Source: Hymenobacter lucidus
Lineage (GTDB): Bacteria > Bacteroidota > Bacteroidia > Cytophagales > Hymenobacteraceae
DNA length: 64,000 nt
Direction: 5' to 3'
NCBI RefSeq assembly: GCF_020447265.1
Contig: NZ_JAJADR010000001.1
Location: 992,001-1,056,000 of the forward strand
The position numbers were made by a program, and so were the translations under genes. Shown one piece after another: positions 6,089-60,666 of the stretch (within the stretch, counting starts at the first letter, position 1; every line of letters begins with the position of its first letter). The notes under the pieces are model-generated. The model was given only the letters and a program-made list of their open reading frames with translations. It was not told the origin of the DNA and did no database searches.

Positions 6089-6140
6089 ATGCGTGAACGA
6101 TGTAGAGACGCAAGTATGCGTCTCTACATCGTTCACGCAT
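6089..6140. repeat. GTAGAGACGC-type palindromic repeat
   Basis: Perfect 24-bp inverted repeat (6089-6112 with 6117-6140) with a 4-nt loop AGTA. The inner core GTAGAGACGCA is shared with two hairpins at 22571-22655. It ends 4 nt from the hrpB stop codon and could fold in the hrpB 3' end. Confidence 0.9.
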
Positions 6141-6144
6141 GATA

Positions 6145-8676
6145 TTACCCCGGCCGCTTCTTGGTGCCGCGGGTGGCAGGGGCTTCCAGCGGGTTGTCGG
6201 GCCAGTGGTGCTTGGGGTAGCGGCCCCGTAAGTCCTTCCGCACCTCGAAGTAGCCCGTATTCCAGAAGCTGCGCAGGTCGCGGGTGACCTGCACCGGCCG
6301 CCGCGCCGGCGACAACAGGTGCAGCGTAAGCGGCACTTTGCCATTGCCCACGGTGGGCGTATCGAGCAAGCCAAACACTTCCTGCAGGCGCACGGCCAGC
6401 ACAGGTGCGGCGGGGTTGGAGTAGTCGAGGGTAATAGTCGAGCCGCTGGGCACGGGGCAATGGGCGGGAGCCAGCCGGTGCAGCTCCTGCTGCTGGGCCC
6501 AGCCGCCAGGCAGCCAGTTGAGCAGCGCTTCGCCCAGCGGTATGCGGTTGACTTCGGCCATCGTGCGTAAGCCTTCCAGGTAAGGACCCAGCCATTCGGG
6601 CAAGGCGTCGAGCAAGGTCGCATCCGACACGTCGGGCCAGTCGTTGGGGGCCAGGTGGTGGGCAAACGCCAGCCGCTCGCGCACCTGCTGGGCCTCATCC
6701 GTCCAGGGCAGGCGGGCAATGCCACCCACCTGTAGGCCTTCAAGTAGGGCCGCGGCCACGGCTTCCGGCTGGGGCTGGGTAATGGCAACTTCGGAGAGCG
6801 TAATAGCGCCCAGACGACGAATCCGGCGGGCTACTACCCGGCCGGCGGTGGCATCCCAGCGCACTTCTTCCCGGGCTTCGATGAGGGCGGCAAAGTGCTG
6901 CTCCAGCTCCTCGCGCTCCACCGGGGCCGCCAGCGCCGCCCGCACCGCGTGGGGCGGACCATCGAGGTGGGCTACGGCAAAAAAGTTGGTGCCCTGGCTG
7001 AAATGCTCGGCCGGCAGGGCGGCGCGCTGGCCCGTAATGAGGCGCACCCGCTCGGGTGTTTCGCGCTGGGCAAGGCGGTCGGGGTAGGCCAGGGCCGCCA
7101 GCAGCCCGGCGGCGTCGGCCTGCAGGGCGGTGTCGCGAATGTGGGCGCGGTTGCGGAGCACGGCTGCCGCCTCGCGCACCCGCCGCACCGCGCCGGCATC
7201 GGGCACGAGGCCGGGCAGCGGGGCGCGGCCGGTGTTCAGGGCTTCCAGGCGCAGGCGCAGGTCGGGCGGGGCGGGAGTGCCGTCGGGCAGGCGCAGAATG
7301 TCGCGCTCGGTGAGCAGAGCCGCCAGCGCGCAGGCCGTAGCCCCGTGCCCCACTTCCTTGCCCCGCACCACTAAGTGGCCCAAGCGCGGCACCAGGCCTA
7401 GGCCGGCCAGGGCGCGGCCGTGGGGCGTGGGCTGGCCTTCGGGGGTAAGCGCGCCGAGGCGCACCAGCAACTCCCGGGCCTGAGCCAGGGCGGCCGCCGG
7501 GGGCGCATCGAGCCAACGCAACGCGGCCGGGTCGTGGGTACCCCACAGGGCCAGCTCCAGGGCCAGGCCGCTAAGGTCGGCAGTGAGGATTTCGGGGGGC
7601 AGGTGGTGGGGGCGCAAGGCGTGTTCGGCTTCGGTCCAGAGGCGGTAGCAGGTGCCGGGCCCAAGGCGGCCGGCCCGGCCCCGGCGCTGGTCGGCGGCGG
7701 CCTGACTGACGGGCACCGTAGCCAGGGTAGTGAGGCCGGTGCGGGGCTCGAACTGGGGCACGCGGGCATAGCCGCCATCCACCACAATCTGCACGCCCTC
7801 GATGGTAAGGCTGGTTTCGGCAATGCTGGTGGCCAGCACTATTTTGCGGCGGCCTTTGGGAGCCGGACGCAGGGCCGCATCCTGCTGCTCGGCGGGCAAT
7901 TCGCCGTGCAATACGTGGATATCGGTAGTGCTGGAAACCGCGCCGGCTAGCTTTTCTGCGGTGCGGCGCTGGTCGGCAAGGCCGGGCAGAAACACCAGTA
8001 CGTCGCCTTCGTGCTTGGCCATTGCTTCGCGCACCAGAGCCGGGGTGAGGTCGGCCAGTCGCTCGTTGGGCCGGCTGCCGGCAGCGGCCACCCGGGCTGG
8101 GGTGAGGTAATGGGTGGAAACGGCGTGGTGCAAGCCCGCGCTGCGCACCACCGGCGCGCTGAGCCAGGTGCCAAGCCGCTCGGCTTCCAGGGTAGCACTC
8201 ATAATGAGCAGGCGCAGATCGGGGCGGAGCACGGCCTGGGCGTCGAGGGCCAGCGCCAGGCCCAGATCGGCCTGCAGGCTTCGCTCGTGAAACTCATCGA
8301 ACAGCACGGCCGCCACACCTTCCAGGGCCGGGTCGTCCTGCAGCATCCGGGTCAGAATCACTTCGGTGGCTACTTCGATGCGAGTCTGGGCCGAGACGCG
8401 GCTTTCGAGCCGGACGCGGTAGCCCACGGTTTGGCCCACCGGCTCGCCCAGGATGCTGGCCATGCGGGCGGCGGCGGCGCGGGCCGCCAGCCGCCGTGGT
8501 TCGAGCACGATGATGCGGCCGGTGGGCGGCATCCAACTGGCTTCGAGCAGGACCAACGGCACCACAGTAGTTTTGCCCGCGCCCGGCGGAGCTTGCAGCA
8601 CGGCGCAGTTGGTAGCAGTCAGCGTGGCTAGCAGCTCGGGCAAAGCGGCGCAAATGGGTAGGTCGGGCAGGCGCAA
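6145..8676 (-). CDS. hrpB: ATP-dependent helicase HrpB
   Basis: An 843-aa DEAH-box helicase of the HrpB family. Motif I is PPGAGKTT, motif II DEFHE, motif III SAT, motif VI QRRGRAGR; the C-terminal HrpB-specific region follows, ending in the usual segment with FEVRKDLRGRYPKHHWPDNP. The precise substrate of HrpB proteins is not well defined. No ATG precedes the conserved N-terminus (LPDLPICAALPELL), so a TTG start at 8676 is proposed. A palindromic repeat lies just upstream and another just downstream. Confidence 0.93.
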   Translation of the reverse strand: MRLPDLPICAALPELLATLTATNCAVLQAPPGAGKTTVVPLVLLEASWMPPTGRIIVLEPRRLAARAAAARMASILGEPVGQTVGYRVRLESRVSAQTRIEVATEVILTRMLQDDPALEGVAAVLFDEFHERSLQADLGLALALDAQAVLRPDLRLLIMSATLEAERLGTWLSAPVVRSAGLHHAVSTHYLTPARVAAAGSRPNERLADLTPALVREAMAKHEGDVLVFLPGLADQRRTAEKLAGAVSSTTDIHVLHGELPAEQQDAALRPAPKGRRKIVLATSIAETSLTIEGVQIVVDGGYARVPQFEPRTGLTTLATVPVSQAAADQRRGRAGRLGPGTCYRLWTEAEHALRPHHLPPEILTADLSGLALELALWGTHDPAALRWLDAPPAAALAQARELLVRLGALTPEGQPTPHGRALAGLGLVPRLGHLVVRGKEVGHGATACALAALLTERDILRLPDGTPAPPDLRLRLEALNTGRAPLPGLVPDAGAVRRVREAAAVLRNRAHIRDTALQADAAGLLAALAYPDRLAQRETPERVRLITGQRAALPAEHFSQGTNFFAVAHLDGPPHAVRAALAAPVEREELEQHFAALIEAREEVRWDATAGRVVARRIRRLGAITLSEVAITQPQPEAVAAALLEGLQVGGIARLPWTDEAQQVRERLAFAHHLAPNDWPDVSDATLLDALPEWLGPYLEGLRTMAEVNRIPLGEALLNWLPGGWAQQQELHRLAPAHCPVPSGSTITLDYSNPAAPVLAVRLQEVFGLLDTPTVGNGKVPLTLHLLSPARRPVQVTRDLRSFWNTGYFEVRKDLRGRYPKHHWPDNPLEAPATRGTKKRPG

Positions 8677-53113: not shown

Positions 53114-53165
53114 GACAGTTGATTTTAATTGGCCGCTTCTAGGCGTCCAATTAAAATCAACTGTC
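53114..53165. terminator. Inverted repeat overlapping the end of the permease gene
   Basis: Perfect 19-bp arms (53114-53132, 53147-53165) and a 14-nt loop. The right arm and loop code the last residues of the DppC-like permease and the stop is in the left arm. It could end the importer operon; AT-rich, so a weak terminator. Confidence 0.6.
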
Positions 53166-54117
53166 GCAACGCCAGTGTGGTAAACAAAATAGCCGTAGCG
53201 GGCACTGCAATCAGCCACCAGGCGGTGGGCTCCAGGCGGGCCGTAGCCAGCATGCGTCCCCAACTGGCTGTTTCGGGTGGCAGGCCTACGCCCAGAAACG
53301 ATAGGGTAGTTTCGAGGCCAAGCAGCGTGGCTACACTCAGCGGCAGTGTGGCTCGCACCGTTTTCCAGATAACGGGCAAGGCATGGCGGGTAATAATGCG
53401 CCAATCAGATAAACCCAACGCCCGGGCGGCTTCGATGTAAGGCAACTGGCTGATGTGTTGCATATCAGCCCGTACCAGCTGGGCAGTAGCAGGCCAGAAA
53501 GTGAGAGCTAGTACGAGCAGTAGCATCGGGGCCGAAGGAGGCTGTAGGGCTGCCAGGGCTAGTACCAGCACTAGCCGGGGAACCGAAGAAAGGAAAGCTA
53601 CGAGCAGCAAAACCAGCCGGTCGAAGGGTACCGGCCAGGAGCTAGGTCGAGCCTGAAGACCCAAACGCCGCGCGCCTAGCCACAAGCCCAACACAACCAG
53701 GCCAGTAGCCCAGCCCAGCCACCACGCGGTGCCCGTGAAGCTGGCCCAAAATAGCCCGGTGCCCGCCGAAATTAGCACGATGGTAGCGGGCAGCCGCAGC
53801 CGGTTATTGCCCCAATACCCGGCTAGGCACCCTAGCAGGGTGCCTAGCAGCGTGGCTATCAAGGCAGCGGGCACACTAATCAGACTTACCGTGCGGGCTC
53901 CAAAGACAAGCCCGGCTAGACTGTCACGCCCCATTGGGTCGGTGCCGAGCCAATGGGTACCAGAAAAGGGCGGCTGCGTAATGGCCGCTAGGTCGGGAGA
54001 ATCGGGTGCGAAGGGTAAGGGCAATATCTCCGCAGCTAGGGCCACTAGTGCTACCAACGCCAACCACAGTATAGCCAGCCATCTACGCCACCAGTGAGGT
54101 ATTGTGAACCGTCTCAC
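53125..54117 (-). CDS. Oligopeptide ABC transporter permease, DppC/OppC type
   Basis: A 330-aa inner-membrane permease. N-terminal helix, then the OppC-type GTHWLGTDPMGRDSLAGLVF, and the ATPase-contact EAA loop EAARALGLSDWRIITRHALP. About six helices. The GTG start at 54117 overlaps the DppB-like stop by 4 nt (GTGA). Partner of the DppB-like permease and the binding lipoprotein; no ATPase gene is present downstream. The 3' end overlaps an inverted repeat. Confidence 0.92.
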   Translation of the reverse strand: MRRFTIPHWWRRWLAILWLALVALVALAAEILPLPFAPDSPDLAAITQPPFSGTHWLGTDPMGRDSLAGLVFGARTVSLISVPAALIATLLGTLLGCLAGYWGNNRLRLPATIVLISAGTGLFWASFTGTAWWLGWATGLVVLGLWLGARRLGLQARPSSWPVPFDRLVLLLVAFLSSVPRLVLVLALAALQPPSAPMLLLVLALTFWPATAQLVRADMQHISQLPYIEAARALGLSDWRIITRHALPVIWKTVRATLPLSVATLLGLETTLSFLGVGLPPETASWGRMLATARLEPTAWWLIAVPATAILFTTLALRQLILIGRLEAAN

Positions 54118-55193
54118 GCTTCTAGGCGAGTTCGTGGGTCAGCTTGGTACGACAGCCAATCGGCTAAAATTTGCGCCAGCAGCCGGGTCAGCGCAATCAG
54201 CAAAACGCCGCCCAGCAGAACAGGGAAATCATGGGCAGCGGCTGCCTCGGCCAGCAGGCGGCCCATGCCGGGCACCGCAAATATCCACTCTACTACGACT
54301 GCCCCGGCTACCAGTGCCGGTAGCAGGTCGGCTATATAGATAATAGCGGGCAATAAGGCATTGCGAAGCGCATGACGCCGTACTACCAGTCGATTGGCCA
54401 AACCCTTAGCCCGGGCCGTCACCACGTAGTCGGTTTTCAGCTCTTGTTGCAGGGAGTTGTCGAGTTGCACAACCAAGGCAGGCAGACTCACTAGCACCAA
54501 GCTTAGCAACGGCAACGTGATATGGTGCAGAAAGCCAAGTAGCTGACTGTTCCAGGAGGCTGTGCTATCCGCTCGGCCCATGCCATAAGCCGGAAAGAGC
54601 GCCAGCATATCGGGGTTAGCCAGTAGTAGCAGCAATAGCAGCGCCACAACAAAGAGCGGCAGGGCGTGTAGCATGTGTAACCCGCCCAGCACCGCGTACC
54701 GGATGCCACGGTAGCGGGCTAGCAGCAGCGTGAGGACATGCGCCGCCGCAATAGTTACCAAAAAAGCCGCAATGGTCAATGGCAGCGTAGAGCCTAGGGC
54801 GCGGAGCAGCAAAGCCGTCACTGGTTGGTTGTCCCGGAAAGAATAACCTAAATTACCGTGTAGCAAGTCGCGCAGCCAGATATGGTACTGATTGTGCAAT
54901 CCATTCCACTGCCAGCGCCAGCGCAAAGTGGGTGAACGTGACGGTGACTTTGGCGCGGCGGCTGGTGTCAGATAGAACAGCGGTAAATCCAGGCCCAGGC
55001 GCTGATGGAGTAAGCGTTCCGCGGTTTGAGTCTGCTCCGGCGTAGCGGTGCGCGCCGATAGATTGCCGCCCCGGGAGCCTTCAAAACCCAGTGGATTACT
55101 TGCTAAGGCACGACTCAGTAGGAAAATAACCGACAAAATGGCCCAGGCTGCCGGCAAAGAGTGTACCAGACGGGAAACCAGGAAGCGTCTCAT
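54114..55193 (-). CDS. Oligopeptide ABC transporter permease, DppB/OppB type
   Basis: A 359-aa inner-membrane permease. OppB-type start RRFLVSRLVHSLPAAWAIL, periplasmic loop with LRDLLHGNLGYSFRDNQPVT, and the EAA contact loop VTARAKGLANRLVVRRHALR. About six helices. An insert of 40 residues near 95-125 is rather long. It lies 3 bases after the binding protein and overlaps the next permease. ATG at 55193. Confidence 0.92.
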   Translation of the reverse strand: MRRFLVSRLVHSLPAAWAILSVIFLLSRALASNPLGFEGSRGGNLSARTATPEQTQTAERLLHQRLGLDLPLFYLTPAAAPKSPSRSPTLRWRWQWNGLHNQYHIWLRDLLHGNLGYSFRDNQPVTALLLRALGSTLPLTIAAFLVTIAAAHVLTLLLARYRGIRYAVLGGLHMLHALPLFVVALLLLLLLANPDMLALFPAYGMGRADSTASWNSQLLGFLHHITLPLLSLVLVSLPALVVQLDNSLQQELKTDYVVTARAKGLANRLVVRRHALRNALLPAIIYIADLLPALVAGAVVVEWIFAVPGMGRLLAEAAAAHDFPVLLGGVLLIALTRLLAQILADWLSYQADPRTRLEA

Positions 55194-55196
55194 GCG

Positions 55197-56933
55197 TCAC
55201 TGGGCAACGGGCTTCTCCCGAATGGCAGTTGCCGTGTAGCCCGGCCGAAGCCCCGAAACCTGCAGATTGGTGAGCCGGCTGGCGGCCGCCAGCCGGGAGC
55301 GTAGAAAAAACAGAACCGTCAGCGGCTTTTCGTCGTGCAACACTCGTTGAAATTGCCTGATAAGCTTAATCTGGCGGCTTTCCTGCTCTTCAACGGCTAT
55401 GGCTTCGATGAGTCGGTCACTGCTGGTAGTGGCAAAGCCCATGTAATTGCCGGCTCCAATACTGTTGGAATGAAGAATAGGAGCAAAGTTGTACACAAAT
55501 GGATTGCCAGTAACGGTAAACAGATACATGTCTACTGAGCCTGACCGCAGCTTTTCCCAGAACAGTGAAGACTCCAGGGGCTGAGGCTGAATAGGAATGC
55601 CAATTTGCCGGGCAGTGTTGCGCAGCTGCAGCGCTATGGTTTCAAATGCTGGGTCCCCGACCCGGTAGCTAAGCGACAAAGCAAGCTGCTGCGCCTGGCC
55701 TGAATGTCCCTGCCGCGTCCAATTGCCAGAAGACTGCCGTTGCCAACCCGCCTTTTGCAGCAGCCCAACAGCCGCGTCCACATCATAAGCGGTTAGGGGC
55801 AGGCTGTCGTTGTATAGGCGCCCCGAATTTGGATTTATCAAGCCCACGCTCGGGTAGGCCATGCCCTGCTGAGTGGCCTGAATAAGGGCCGGCACGTTAA
55901 ATAAATGAGACAAGGCCTGGCGGGTAAACTTATCCTGTAAGGTAGGCTGCCGGGTATTAAAGCAGGCCGTTATCATCTTATAGGAGTCGGTGGTGTAGAA
56001 CTGCAGTTCTGCCTCCTTGTCTTTGGTTTGGCGTAGTCGTTGAAACTCTTTGGCCGGCATCATTGGGTACACGTCGATATCACCACGCCGTAAGGCCAGC
56101 ACGGCAGTTGCCTCATCCGGAATGATTTGATAATCGAGCCTTACCGGGTGGGCTTGCAGGGGAAGTAAATCGGAGTGCAGCGTGTCGGCCCACCAAGTAG
56201 CCTTACGCTTGAATGTAACGTAGCGGCCCGGCTCCCAGCTTTCTAGGGTATAGGGGCCACAGCCGGGCAGTCGTTCGGGATGATGGTCGAGTTGGGCTTG
56301 TTTGTAGCGCTGTACAAAAGCCCCAATAGCCGGATGATGCTCATCACCGGCCGTATCGGCCCGTAGCGTGGCCAACGAGAAAGGGCGTAATTGACCTTGC
56401 GGATCCAGTGGATACTCAGGCAGGATAATATAGTCGCCTGATGACCACTTATACTCAGGTGAACGGCCGGCACAGATCAGGGTGAAACGCCGGTCATCTT
56501 TCGGATCGAGTTTTATATCCCGAATAAAGCCCCATTGGGATTGGTTGCTCTCCGTCGGTAGGCCCGGGCAGTTCATCACTTTGAGTGTGAAGGCAACATC
56601 ACGGGCTGATACTGGCCGACCGTTGTCCCACACAGCTGCAGGTCGTATCCGGTAAGTCAGCAGTGTCAGGGAATCGGTATACGCTACCGTCGGCAACGAT
56701 TCAGCCAAGCAGGGGGTAAATTGCTGCTTGCTGGGGTCAACAAATAATAAGCTTGAATACAACAGATTTGCTGCTTCAAGAGCATTTTCATTTGGCAAAA
56801 TCAGCGGATCCATATTTTCAGGATCCCGTGCCCAACGAATACGAATCGGAGACTTAGTGCTTTCCTGATGCGAAGAGCAGGCGCCCACGACGCCGCTCAC
56901 CACAACCAGGAAACCAAATAAAAGCTGCTTCAT
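55197..56933 (-). CDS. Oligopeptide-binding lipoprotein of an ABC transporter (SBP family 5)
   Basis: A 578-aa solute-binding protein. Lipoprotein signal KQLLFGFLVVVSGVVGACSS (Cys19). Family marks: IRWARDPENMDPLILP, LTYRIRPAAVWDNGRPVSAR, DVAFTLKVM, GCGPYTLESWEPGRYVTFKR, and KFTRQALSHLFNVPALI. It should capture peptides (or similar) and hand them to the DppB/DppC permeases that follow at once. ATG 56933; the open frame to 56978 is longer but not needed. A small peptide frame lies 88 bases upstream on the same strand. Confidence 0.92.
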   Translation of the reverse strand: MKQLLFGFLVVVSGVVGACSSHQESTKSPIRIRWARDPENMDPLILPNENALEAANLLYSSLLFVDPSKQQFTPCLAESLPTVAYTDSLTLLTYRIRPAAVWDNGRPVSARDVAFTLKVMNCPGLPTESNQSQWGFIRDIKLDPKDDRRFTLICAGRSPEYKWSSGDYIILPEYPLDPQGQLRPFSLATLRADTAGDEHHPAIGAFVQRYKQAQLDHHPERLPGCGPYTLESWEPGRYVTFKRKATWWADTLHSDLLPLQAHPVRLDYQIIPDEATAVLALRRGDIDVYPMMPAKEFQRLRQTKDKEAELQFYTTDSYKMITACFNTRQPTLQDKFTRQALSHLFNVPALIQATQQGMAYPSVGLINPNSGRLYNDSLPLTAYDVDAAVGLLQKAGWQRQSSGNWTRQGHSGQAQQLALSLSYRVGDPAFETIALQLRNTARQIGIPIQPQPLESSLFWEKLRSGSVDMYLFTVTGNPFVYNFAPILHSNSIGAGNYMGFATTSSDRLIEAIAVEEQESRQIKLIRQFQRVLHDEKPLTVLFFLRSRLAAASRLTNLQVSGLRPGYTATAIREKPVAQ

Positions 56934-57021
56934 GAAGAGGTTTCTGCTCGGAGAGAGTGCCGGGCAAGTTAACAACATTCTACAGGAAGCCGAACGCTAT
57001 AGTGCGGAAGGGACTAGAAGC

Positions 57022-57174
57022 TTAGTCACCGCCCCAGCCACCGCCACCTTGGTCGTTGCCAGTTGGTACTACAACAATAGGATTATTATTTCCAGACGCC
57101 TGGGCATCGGTACGCTCAGGAGAAGAAGTAAAGCTGGAGAGCTGAAGCAGGGCAATTGCAATGAGTTCTAACAT
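57022..57174 (-). CDS. Small Gly-rich peptide, candidate signal precursor
   Basis: A 50-codon frame from ATG 57174 to the stop at 57022. The N-terminus MLELIAIALLQL is hydrophobic, the middle polar (SSPERTDAQASGNNN) with PIVVVPTGND, and the end is QGGGGWGGD. It is 88 bases upstream of the binding lipoprotein on the same strand, so it probably heads that operon. It resembles no named family I can recall. It could be a peptide pheromone precursor, a leader peptide or noise. See the finding on a peptide-signalling module. Confidence 0.5.
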   Translation of the reverse strand: MLELIAIALLQLSSFTSSPERTDAQASGNNNPIVVVPTGNDQGGGGWGGD

Positions 57175-57546
57175 GGCGCTCTATATGGTTGAGGTGGTTA
57201 GGCGTTTGAACATTACAAAGGTGCTCTACATTTAGGCCGTCGTAAAGGAAAGAACTAGCGTAAAAGTGACTTGAATTATTCCGTAGATAACTATGACTTG
57301 TGCACTGTGATATTTGAATTATGTCAACAGTATAAGTAATTACACCTTAGGGTGTAAGCGCTAGACTTTGGCAATATATTGCAATTGTGACTTTTTGCTT
57401 TTTTAATGGACGAAATTACTCAACTACAAAGGTGCAGAGGGATATCGAAAATTATAAAGGAAGTATTTCAATTGTTTGTGACAGTAATTATTTTGCTTTT
57501 TCCATCTTGCAATAGTCTATAGAAGAACTAAAACGCTGTTTAGAGT
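57175..57546. promoter_or_regulatory. AT-rich divergent control region with two palindromes
   Basis: The space between the peptide/importer operon (leftward) and the TPR-like gene (rightward). It contains TACACC-TTAG-GGTGTA (57341-57356) and the perfect palindrome GCAATATATTGC (57371-57382). TACAAAGGTGC occurs twice (near 57215 and 57424); on the minus strand these give CACCTTTG, close to a -7 box. It is clearly AT-rich compared with its surroundings. No gene is seen in it. Confidence 0.5.
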
Positions 57547-59088
57547 ATGGAAAAGCTGAGTAATCTAGCAAAGATTGTGACAGATCGTCGCATGAAAGAA
57601 TCACCGTTATTTGATTTTTCCGCTAAGAAATCCTCCAACAAAGATCTTAAGCTAATCAGGCTTTTGGAGGAAGAGCCCGATAGTACGCAACTGCAACTTA
57701 CGAAGGCCCTATATGGTAGGGCTTCGACCGCCAACAATACCTCTTTCCGTAAGCTAAAGTCCCGGGTACAGCAGAAGCTCCTGAACCATCTTTATTTTTT
57801 GGAGCAATCCGACCCTCGCCATTTGGTATCGAGAAGATACGAGTTGCAATGCATCGGGTTATATCATCAGGTAACAATCCTATACAGAGAAGGCGAGTAT
57901 ATGCTGGCGGAGCAACTGTTGCGCAAGTGTTTGCGGCAGGCTCTGGAAGGTGAATTTACCGAGTATGCTGTACTGGCGACCCGCTTGCTAAGCAAATTGT
58001 ATGTAGATCTTCGGCAGCCGGCACGCTACCGGGCGGCTAGTAAGCAACTCAACCAGCTGCAGCAGTTAATGGCGCTGGAAGATGAAGCAGGCCAGATCTA
58101 CCTAAGTAGTAAAATGGCGCAGGCGCACACGGTACGGTCGCGCCGGGCACTGCTAAACGAGCTACCGGGCTATCTGGCTCAGCTGCAAAAGCTGCACGAC
58201 AAAGCGAAAAGCTACACTACGTTCAACTATCTGTATCTGATCCAGCTGACTTTACTGGAGTTTACGGGTAATTACGAGGAGATAATCAAAATAACCACGG
58301 CTACCGAGAAGCTGTGGGCTAAGGGCAAGATCAACCGGCGACGATTTGACAGCCGGTTCAATAACTACATGACGGCTTATGCTTATTTGCACAACAAGCA
58401 GGCAGACAGGGGGTTGGTTTTGTCAGAAGATTATCTTAAGGATTTCCACCCGTCTTCTGGCAACTGGTTCTTCTTCATGGAGAACTATGTGCTGCTGGCC
58501 CTGCATGCCGGACAATACAGCCAGGCGCAGCAGTTGCTGGAAATGGCTCATAAAAACCCCTATTTCCGCAAGCAACGTGCTGCGCCGCGGCAGCGCTGGG
58601 ACTTGTACAAAGCCTATATCTACTTCTTACAGCCTGAAAATTCGCCCCTGACACTGCGACACTTCAATCAGTTCTTGCAGACCGTGCCCGACTATAGCCG
58701 CGACAAGCAGGGCTATAACGTGGCTATTCTGATTTTGCAGTATCTCAACTTCCTGCGGCGCCAGGATGTTGAGAACTTGCTGGCCCGTCTGGAAAGTCTA
58801 CGCAAGTACGAACAGCGCCACTTGCGGGAATCGGCGACGTTGCGCAGCCAGCTGTTTTTTCGGCTACTGGTACTTACCGTTAAAGAAAATTTTGATCCTG
58901 AAGCTTGCCAGAAAAAGGGACAACCGCTGCTCAACCGTCTGCACGAAGCCCCACAGCCTGGGGAAGCCTATGCCGAAATTGAAATCATCCCCTACGAAGC
59001 CTTGTGGGGAATAACGCTGGACATTCTGCGAGCTAACCTAGCGGAAAATAAAACCGCCGAACAGGCGCAACGGGCCCGGGTAGCCTAA
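57547..59088 (+). CDS. Helical TPR-like protein, possible peptide receptor
   Basis: A 513-aa almost wholly helical protein, not assigned to a named family. The N-terminus is KLSNLAKIVTDRRMKESPLF, then LQLTKALYGRASTANN, FRKLKSRVQQKLLNHLYFLE. From about 100 on there are repeating paired helices of the TPR type (GEYMLAEQLLRKCLRQALEG, YTTFNYLYLIQLTLLEF, HAGQYSQAQQLLEMAHKNPY, QGYNVAILILQYLNFLRRQD). No signal, membrane helix or clear DNA-binding helix-turn-helix. The divergent partner is a small peptide frame with an oligopeptide importer, which suggests, without proof, a peptide-responsive regulator like the RRNPP proteins of Firmicutes. ATG at 57547. Confidence 0.8.
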   Translation: MEKLSNLAKIVTDRRMKESPLFDFSAKKSSNKDLKLIRLLEEEPDSTQLQLTKALYGRASTANNTSFRKLKSRVQQKLLNHLYFLEQSDPRHLVSRRYELQCIGLYHQVTILYREGEYMLAEQLLRKCLRQALEGEFTEYAVLATRLLSKLYVDLRQPARYRAASKQLNQLQQLMALEDEAGQIYLSSKMAQAHTVRSRRALLNELPGYLAQLQKLHDKAKSYTTFNYLYLIQLTLLEFTGNYEEIIKITTATEKLWAKGKINRRRFDSRFNNYMTAYAYLHNKQADRGLVLSEDYLKDFHPSSGNWFFFMENYVLLALHAGQYSQAQQLLEMAHKNPYFRKQRAAPRQRWDLYKAYIYFLQPENSPLTLRHFNQFLQTVPDYSRDKQGYNVAILILQYLNFLRRQDVENLLARLESLRKYEQRHLRESATLRSQLFFRLLVLTVKENFDPEACQKKGQPLLNRLHEAPQPGEAYAEIEIIPYEALWGITLDILRANLAENKTAEQAQRARVA

Positions 59089-59099
59089 CCCTTACGCCA

Positions 59100-59597
59100 C
59101 TATGGGCGGCTACGGACCGTGGTGCTGGCATGGACCCCTGCGCTGGCCTTTTTGGCCGGAGCTACGAGTGTTTTCTTGGTAACCGGTTGGGTTACTGCTT
59201 TCGGGGCAGGTGCTGTGGTAGGTAGAACCGGCGCTGATACTGCTGCAACTGTGGCAGCAGCCGCTACAGGAGTGCTGACGGCAACGTAGCGCTGATATTG
59301 CGCATCGGTCAATACTCCTTTCAGCTTGTCTGCATACTCTTTCGTAACAACAGCCATTTTGCTTTGCAGCAAGGCCGGATCAATGCTATACATCTGCTTC
59401 AGGTCATTCTCCTGCACCAGTCGGTCATACGTAAGCCGCTTTACTTGGAACATACGGGAATCATCCAGGGAAATTTGCTGGGCCAGTTTGCGGGTGTCTT
59501 CGGTAGCTTGGGCACGCAGATCAGGTGTCTGCTGAGCTTTGGCTACTAGGCTGTGCATAGAGGCGGCAACAAGAAGGAAGAAGCAATATTTCTTCAT
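59100..59597 (-). CDS. Small exported protein with Ala/Pro/Thr tail
   Basis: A 165-aa protein. Signal peptide CFFLLVAASMHSLVAKA; a helical part (EDTRKLAQQISLDDSRMF, YDRLVQENDLKQMYSIDPAL, VVTKEYADKLKGVLTDAQYQ) that resembles LTxxQ-type periplasmic proteins by the LTDAQY end; then a low-complexity Ala/Pro/Val/Thr tail. It is convergent with the TPR-like gene. Function unknown. ATG at 59597. Confidence 0.75.
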   Translation of the reverse strand: MKKYCFFLLVAASMHSLVAKAQQTPDLRAQATEDTRKLAQQISLDDSRMFQVKRLTYDRLVQENDLKQMYSIDPALLQSKMAVVTKEYADKLKGVLTDAQYQRYVAVSTPVAAAATVAAVSAPVLPTTAPAPKAVTQPVTKKTLVAPAKKASAGVHASTTVRSRP

Positions 59598-59934: not shown

Positions 59935-60666
59935 TTAGAACTTATTCAGCCGCTGCAATACGTCCCGTACGTACGTCTGCCCGATGGGAATTTGCTTGTT
60001 TTCAATCGTAATGGTGTTATCCTCAATTGCTTGCACTCTTTTGAGGTTCACGATAAACGAGCGGTGGGCTCGCACGAATACCGAAGAGGGAAATTTCTCT
60101 TCCACGGCTTTCATGGTGCTGTACACGATGAGCTTACTGTGCGGCATTACGATGTGAACATAGTCGCCGAGGGCCTCTACGTAGCATACGTCGTTGAAAA
60201 GGACTTTCACCAGCTTGGTATCGACCTTCACGAAAGTAAAATCCGGGTCAGTGCTGGTGGGGGCCAAAATGGTAGCTGTGGAAGCCGCAGCAGTTTCGGA
60301 CAGCTCCAGGGCTTTTTGGGCCGCCTTCAGAAAGCGGGCGTAGCTGATGGGCTTTACTAGATAGTCGACCACATCGTGCTCGAAGGCCTCGACAGCGTAG
60401 TGCTTGCTGCTGGTAATGAGAATAACCAGGGGCGGATTCTGGAGCGTGCTTAGCAGGTCGAGGCCCGACATCAGGGGCATTTCAACGTCGAGGAAAAGCA
60501 GATCGACGGGCTGGGTACGGAGCACTTCGGCCGCGGCCATGGCACTGTCGTAGCTCCCGACAGCGGTTAGGAAAGGCGTATTGTTGATGCAGTTGATAAC
60601 GATCTGGACGGATAGCGGATCATCGTCGACGACAAGGCAACGCAGCGTGGAAAGAGGTGTTGGCAT
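59935..60666 (-). CDS. LytTR-family response regulator
   Basis: A 243-aa two-component regulator. Receiver domain (about 8-125) with acidic DDD pocket (RCLVVDDDPL), phospho-acceptor Asp60 in FLDVEMP and conserved Lys in VDYLVKPISY; LytTR DNA-binding domain (about 145-243: FTFVKVDTKLVKVLFND, YVEALGDYVHIV, FVRAHRSFIVNLKRVQ). No cognate histidine kinase lies in the window. A TACCTTTG box on the minus strand (60679-60672) ends 5 bases before the ATG, so the mRNA may be nearly leaderless. The REC-Hpt gene is directly upstream. Confidence 0.95.
   Translation of the reverse strand: MPTPLSTLRCLVVDDDPLSVQIVINCINNTPFLTAVGSYDSAMAAAEVLRTQPVDLLFLDVEMPLMSGLDLLSTLQNPPLVILITSSKHYAVEAFEHDVVDYLVKPISYARFLKAAQKALELSETAAASTATILAPTSTDPDFTFVKVDTKLVKVLFNDVCYVEALGDYVHIVMPHSKLIVYSTMKAVEEKFPSSVFVRAHRSFIVNLKRVQAIEDNTITIENKQIPIGQTYVRDVLQRLNKF

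Follow-up and report, generated by a model that had tools for sequence, protein, structure and literature searches.

The 64,000-nucleotide stretch of the Hymenobacter lucidus genome analyzed here (contig NZ_JAJADR010000001.1, positions 992,001 to 1,056,000; the window) contains a compact module in which a small propeptide gene and the genes of an oligopeptide importer are divergent from the gene of a predicted intracellular peptide receptor. We consider it likely that this module is an export-import peptide-pheromone circuit with an intracellular site of action, and the evidence supports its description as a functional equivalent of the RRNPP systems rather than as a member by sequence. The initial annotation had described a Gly-rich frame of 50 amino acids (aa), a binding lipoprotein and DppB- and DppC-like permeases on the minus strand, with a divergent gene for a 513-aa helical protein, and this layout was confirmed. 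Its suggestion of an RRNPP equivalent gains support from linkage throughout the family, from the joint absence of the receptor and the substrate-binding protein (SBP), and from a predicted receptor fold resembling Rap and NprR. To this are added identical tandem peptide copies despite codon divergence, recurrent intergenic boxes, and a receptor-peptide pair with another C-terminal motif outside the class.

The receptor gene was found in 93 of 101 Hymenobacter genomes, of which 89 have one copy and 4 have two. Its neighborhood was analyzed in 81 loci, comprising the window and 80 loci from 79 receptor-positive genomes, with 13 further positive genomes left out. Genes for SBP, DppB, and DppC are divergent from the receptor gene in 77 of these loci, and the receptor gene adjoins a propeptide gene in 78, where the small frame starts 340 to 385 nucleotides (nt; median, 369 nt) from the receptor start. 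The importer layout is departed from in L098 (a second paralogue), in L109 and L110 (contig ends), and in L136 (a rearranged locus that has two receptors and, of the importer genes, SBP alone); the small frame was not found in the first three. L098 (G092:C14, 8067-9578) holds a receptor paralogue with neither propeptide nor importer in the stretch and is possibly an orphan listener. The contigs of L109 and L110 stop approximately 560 nt upstream of the receptor, a place where long repeats may break assemblies, and the genome of L110 (G088) has an SBP orthologue on another contig.

The same arrangement extends through the Hymenobacteraceae, where the receptor profile matches 196 of 204 genomes and six of six genera. 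Among 20 loci from five other genera (L189 to L208), a divergent SBP-DppB-DppC set is present in 19, the exception being L208, a second receptor copy with SBP only. A leader peptide adjoins the receptor gene in 18 of the 20 (none was seen in L200 and L208). All 18 peptides carry a G-rich W motif within their last 20 residues, mostly at the very C terminus, as a single C-terminal copy (for example, GGSGTWDTRD and IGTSGWDDRN). Several loci show multiplied genes. L193 contains three tandem propeptide genes (approximately 6110-6780), each ending in GGTGSWDDNN, and in genus g5, L200 and L202 each have two tandem receptor genes beside one importer set, and L201 has four. In L136 (1-14000) and L228 (1-19501), two receptor genes flank one SBP gene, with a two-unit propeptide beside one of them, which may represent two-receptor circuits; the L136 receptors are 47% and 43% identical to that of the window.

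The propeptide gene of the window (57022..57174, minus strand) encodes 50 aa, made up of the hydrophobic leader MLELIAIALLQLSSF, a variable linker, and a single C-terminal core, QGGGGWGGD. This predicted signal core occupies the last nine codons before the stop (57025..57051, minus strand), and the mature peptide may have other ends. Across the 78 loci, propeptides range from 46 to 297 codons, the upper lengths being due to repeats. They begin with a leader of the pattern M(L/F)ELIAIALLQFAS, followed by a variable linker and by 1 to 20 W-centered units, each consisting of a G-rich core of 8 residues with one Trp (one unit in 18 loci, as in the window, where it is C-terminal, and two or more in 60). 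Frames were picked in each genus locus by a score favoring a hydrophobic start and GxW motifs, so that motif counts are not independent of that choice; the fixed frame position and the codon patterns are. A chance frame was rejected on the basis of the fixed start distance in 78 of 81 loci and the synonymous excess in codon differences. For the window and eight close relatives, these amount to 147 synonymous and 34 nonsynonymous differences in the leader and 83 and 14, respectively, in the C-terminal core (sums over pairs, which are not independent). The conservation that the initial annotation had asked of the frame is thus found in its start and C-terminal core, while its total length and stop position vary.

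In the 60 multi-unit loci, the units of one genome agree at positions W-5 to W+2 with an identity of at least 98% (genome weighted), whereas their codon identity, W itself excepted, is just 58 to 73%. Because the codons differ while the residues match, this sameness does not merely reflect recent DNA duplication. The flanking positions W-9 to W-6, only 39 to 61% identical between units, form variable spacers. A single 8-mer is common to all units in 55 of the 60 loci. Between loci, there are 47 different majority 8-mers among 78, varying at W-5, W-3, W+1, and W+2, with G at W-4 in 78 of 78. Homogeneous repeats combined with varied cores form the pattern that would be expected of a multicopy, species-specific signal. 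Yeast alpha-factor precursors likewise contain many identical peptide copies with variable spacers, although that system is eukaryotic and acts through a membrane receptor.

The receptor gene (57547..59088, plus strand) encodes a 513-aa all-helical protein, predicted to consist of an N-terminal helix-turn-helix (HTH)-like helical domain (residues ~1 to 90) followed by a tetratricopeptide repeat (TPR)-like superhelix; lengths over the 81 loci are 472 to 514 aa. No Pfam model scores above its cutoff on this protein (best TPR model, TPR_12, with 13.4 bits versus 30.1), and the TPR assignment therefore rests on the predicted fold. In a VIA-align comparison of the AlphaFold2 model (predicted local distance difference test score, 89), the nine closest solved structures are Rap and NprR, mostly peptide bound, with NprR at ranks 8 and 9; AimR also appears in the list. 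The model is thus consistent with a peptide-binding TPR superhelix, and the TPR-like character proposed initially is borne out by this fold, not by TPR hidden Markov models (HMMs). Plain Foldseek gave no specific RRNPP match for the predicted receptor. For the N-terminal domain, it gave no significant match, and no Pfam model exceeded its cutoff, leaving weak HTH-like matches only. The receptor profile had no match at an E value of ≤1 among all PDB sequences. Among 120 of the 353 receptor relatives, those with a source name are labeled hypothetical, uncharacterized, or tetratricopeptide repeat protein, to the extent that the truncated names reveal, with the exception of one "uncharacterized protein YukE."

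The importer genes comprise an SBP family 5 binding lipoprotein (55197..56978, minus strand; 593-codon frame), a DppB/OppB-like permease (54114..55193, minus strand), and a DppC/OppC-like permease (53125..54117, minus strand). The lipoprotein start appears more likely to lie at 56933 (MKQLLFGFLVVVSGVVGAC..) than at 56978. In a Pfam search of the window proteins, the SBP matched PF00496 with 172.8 bits (cutoff, 32.4) and the two permeases matched PF00528 with 87.7 and 69.5 bits (cutoff, 26.4), which is the composition of Opp/Dpp importers (SBP family 5 with two BPD_transp_1 permeases). The best NCBIfam models are Opp4B and Opp4C for the respective permeases, each below its cutoff, and NikA for the SBP, far below its cutoff. 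The solved-structure relatives of the SBP include peptide- and nickel-binding proteins, among them NikA, and a peptide-binding one ranks first. Unlike known Opp/Dpp importers, the set is sited beside a peptide-receptor pair and no ATPase gene was seen in the SBP-DppB-DppC operon of the window. A 652-codon frame with two oligo_HPY stretches, one of them above the cutoff, is located on another contig of the H. lucidus genome.

The presence of the receptor coincides with that of the SBP orthologue in the genomes tested. The orthologue was found in 12 of 12 receptor-positive and 0 of 8 receptor-negative genomes tested; six of the latter have SBP paralogues of 24 to 26% identity and two have no match. 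In a marker tree of 24 of 30 genomes (six were omitted, their best match being partial or seemingly paralogous), seven of the eight receptor-negative genomes fall in one clade and the eighth is 82% complete, so that these genome sequences point to one firm joint absence of receptor and SBP orthologue, from a single clade, and not to eight. Core distances over 58 loci correlate with those of the receptor (0.553), SBP (0.540), DppB (0.456), DppC (0.464), and a neighboring LytTR gene that served as the control (0.453). Partial correlations given LytTR are 0.375, 0.391, 0.340, and 0.331 for the four module proteins, respectively. None of 200 permutations, which ignore phylogeny, reached the receptor value. 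Since the partial correlations are all similar, the excess is a property of the whole module rather than of the receptor in particular, and this covariation, uncorrected for phylogeny, supports linked change of the module.

The region between propeptide and receptor contains GTCAC boxes on the propeptide strand, clustering near -306, -215, and -95 (median gap, 369 nt). At least one box is present in 70 of 78 regions, with 2.09 per region compared to 0.25 after shuffling and 0.09 for the reverse GTGAC. In the window, the boxes are located at 57478..57482, 57387..57391, and 57266..57270 (-308, -217, and -96 from the propeptide start; minus strand), and a promoter-like element, GTCAC-N16-TCCTTT-N23-CTTTG, lies in front of the propeptide (57216..57270, minus strand). 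The form GTCAC-N16-TCCTTT-N21/22-[AC][AC]CTTTG occurs in 25 of 78 regions, with a mean of none over 50 shuffles; all control-region shuffles kept single-base composition only. GTCAC boxes also occur in L206 and L207 and were not found in 16 loci examined from four other genera. A strict pattern of the element (gap, 20 to 23) has a single match in the H. lucidus genome, ahead of the propeptide. Over 19 genomes, it has seven matches: 7 of the 12 receptor-positive genomes contribute a single match apiece, and the 7 receptor-negative genomes contribute none. By coordinates, six of the matches lie at the propeptide locus and one elsewhere (G092:C14). The lack of further regulon targets is a weak negative because the pattern is strict and missed the window's own upstream element.

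Beyond the family, the receptor profile matches 111 of 390 genomes at the order level, 34 of them outside the family. In a phylum-wide sample, 19 of 395 genomes match the first receptor profile and 32 of 395 match a profile including remote members, some weakly (E values up to 8.9e-4) and maybe representing other TPR proteins. A divergent leader-type frame was recognized in 12 of 39 remote loci, judged by eye from frame lists with no fixed rule. A plain rule is positive in the divergent 700 nt of 10 of the 39 loci (L213 looks spurious) and yields 7 distinct frames in the remainder of ~984 kb of strand, where L236 resembles a second copy of the neighboring peptide. This rule undercounts because its leader part passes just 43 of 78 genus peptides; a leader HMM gave no clean separation of remote peptides from background.

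In one family outside the window's class, the receptor is present in 21 of 23 genomes and a divergent leader frame in 12 of 30 loci, a set that overlaps the 39 remote loci at several places. Seven peptides in five of these loci end in IDRxED, two of the loci having two tandem copies. Among the other 18 loci, several have no upstream DNA or are partial matches, and nothing was found in the others. The 39 remote loci mostly have no nearby importer. The initial expectation that a short frame and an importer accompany the TPR gene consequently holds within the family, while its importer part mostly fails outside. Leader frames stand beside a TPR gene with no Dpp gene found in the stretch in, e.g., L209, L217, L225, and L231. 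Outside the family, L209 (6104-6229) has a 41-aa leader peptide ending in CDNGGWVDKDVKK beside the receptor, and L224 (6396-12830) combines a leader peptide, a receptor, and an SBP-DppB-DppC set on the other side of the receptor.

This distribution suggests that the pairing of receptor and leader peptide is older than the link to the importer and that lineages differ in their C-terminal code. On balance, we are inclined to think that Bacteroidota have an old intracellular peptide-pheromone lineage of their own. Its receptor family would occur in more than one class, beside divergently encoded leader peptides whose C-terminal code has changed from one lineage to another, with a Trp core rich in G in the Hymenobacteraceae and IDRxED in lineages beyond the class. 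Hymenobacter would have elaborated this into precursors of the alpha-factor type that contain as many as 20 identical copies, with dozens of codes that are specific to species.

In the circuit that we infer, the GTCAC-box promoter would drive expression of both the propeptide and its own importer, whose genes are adjacent on the same strand and presumably cotranscribed. The leader would carry the propeptide across the inner membrane, and proteases would free a peptide of approximately 8 to 10 residues around the Trp core. The lipoprotein would then capture the peptide for reimport by DppBC and an ATPase encoded elsewhere. In the cytoplasm, the peptide would bind to the TPR-like superhelix of the receptor and alter the activity of the N-terminal helical domain. 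This activity is probably binding to DNA at the GTCAC boxes, so that the receptor output would feed back on the propeptide-importer operon. Species-specific cores would keep the signal private to relatives, and multicopy precursors would release more signal peptides per translation.

It is unlikely that the secreted product of the small gene serves another function, whether bacteriocin-like, metal-binding, or adhesive, and is recovered by the importer, with the TPR protein as a mere local regulator. Gly-rich repeats, some with Asp or His, and many copies per precursor would suit such a product, and NikA is both the best NCBIfam model of the SBP, albeit far below its cutoff, and one of its solved relatives, behind peptide binders. 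However, His is absent from the majority 8-mer core of 51 of the 78 loci, for which reason the metallophore reading of the NikA-like matches is not favored, and identical copies within genomes with 47 codes between them fit recognition better. Other genera have a single C-terminal copy, the receptor fold is nearest to peptide-bound Rap and NprR, and outside the class, leader and receptor are kept with quite different tails. We also regard as improbable a product that is not exported and binds the TPR protein directly as a membrane-anchored or cytoplasmic microprotein, e.g., as a sensor of envelope state. The importer occupies the same operon across six genera and variable spacers part the tandem repeats, although the leader has no basic N terminus (K/R within residues 2 to 8 in just 1 of 78 propeptides), no processing site is demonstrated, and remote homologues mostly have no importer nearby. 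An attenuator-type leader peptide for translation or transcription of the Dpp operon is highly improbable, although the frame immediately precedes the SBP gene on the same strand. This reading was rejected because core amino acids are kept while codons vary; in addition, repeats number up to 20 copies, and leader frames also accompany TPR genes in stretches with no recognized Dpp gene.

Two reports describe one-component peptide pheromones from Bacillota (PMC10075063; PMC11343458). As given in the available part of the first, the RRNPP signature comprises a propeptide of 10 to 100 aa, a Sec-type leader predicted by SignalP (or PptAB substrate), a receptor of 250 to 500 aa, detection by TPR HMMs, and gene adjacency; the screen used complete Firmicutes genomes only and filtered candidates by basic N-terminal propeptide residues (PMC10075063). 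The window propeptide falls within the size range and adjoins its receptor gene. The receptor is narrowly outside the length range in the window and in most of the 81 loci and is inside it in a few; TPR HMMs do not detect it, and the propeptide N terminus is not basic. These criteria and the restriction to Firmicutes would explain why that screen did not report the module. The module is not filed as RRNPP because it has no sequence similarity to solved proteins and no basic leader N terminus and because TPR HMMs fail.

The closest parallel is with the Rap-Phr systems of Bacillus and its phages and plasmids, in which a propeptide also adjoins a TPR receptor and may hold several pheromone copies; the predicted superhelix is nearest to Rap with bound pheromone. 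Tandem copies number 1 to 4 per Rap propeptide, with duplicated pheromones in Rap phi3T and Rap 105, according to the accessible text of PMC11343458. Unlike Rap-Phr, the module belongs to another phylum, has divergent genes, up to 20 copies, and an importer beside the propeptide, and shows neither sequence similarity to Rap nor a basic leader N terminus. As in NprR-NprX, PlcR, Rgg, and AimR (RRNPPA), the receptor may be of the one-component TPR type, with its output domain at the N terminus, but that domain has no Pfam match above the cutoff and weak HTH-like matches only. No example of an intracellular peptide pheromone from Bacteroidota was found among the papers listed in searches of the open-license literature, preprints being outside the scope, which is not proof of absence. 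For this phylum, the accessible part of a 2026 review names N-acyl-cyclolysines (PMC13419125). A study that mined Bacteroidales for ribosomally synthesized and posttranslationally modified peptides notes, in the portion available, two clusters that contain TPR-like genes, as well as a ComX-like frame without the key Trp (PMC10352776), which is a different setting from the Hymenobacter module.

If this interpretation is correct, peptide codes that are genetically encoded and private to a species, with the importer next to the signal gene, exist in a phylum other than Bacillota. Peptide exit and reentry, copy numbers from 1 to 20, and joint change of receptor and code become testable questions, and since receptor-peptide pairs can be read from genomes, predicted partners can be tested directly with synthetic peptides.

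Two further genes lie next to the module. A 165-aa frame with a signal-like start (59100-59597, minus strand) and no Pfam match above the cutoff adjoins the receptor gene, and 27 of the 81 loci, the window included, have a relative of it close to the receptor. The LytTR response regulator used as the control gene (59935-60666, minus strand) is a neighbor of the receptor in 59 of the 81 loci.
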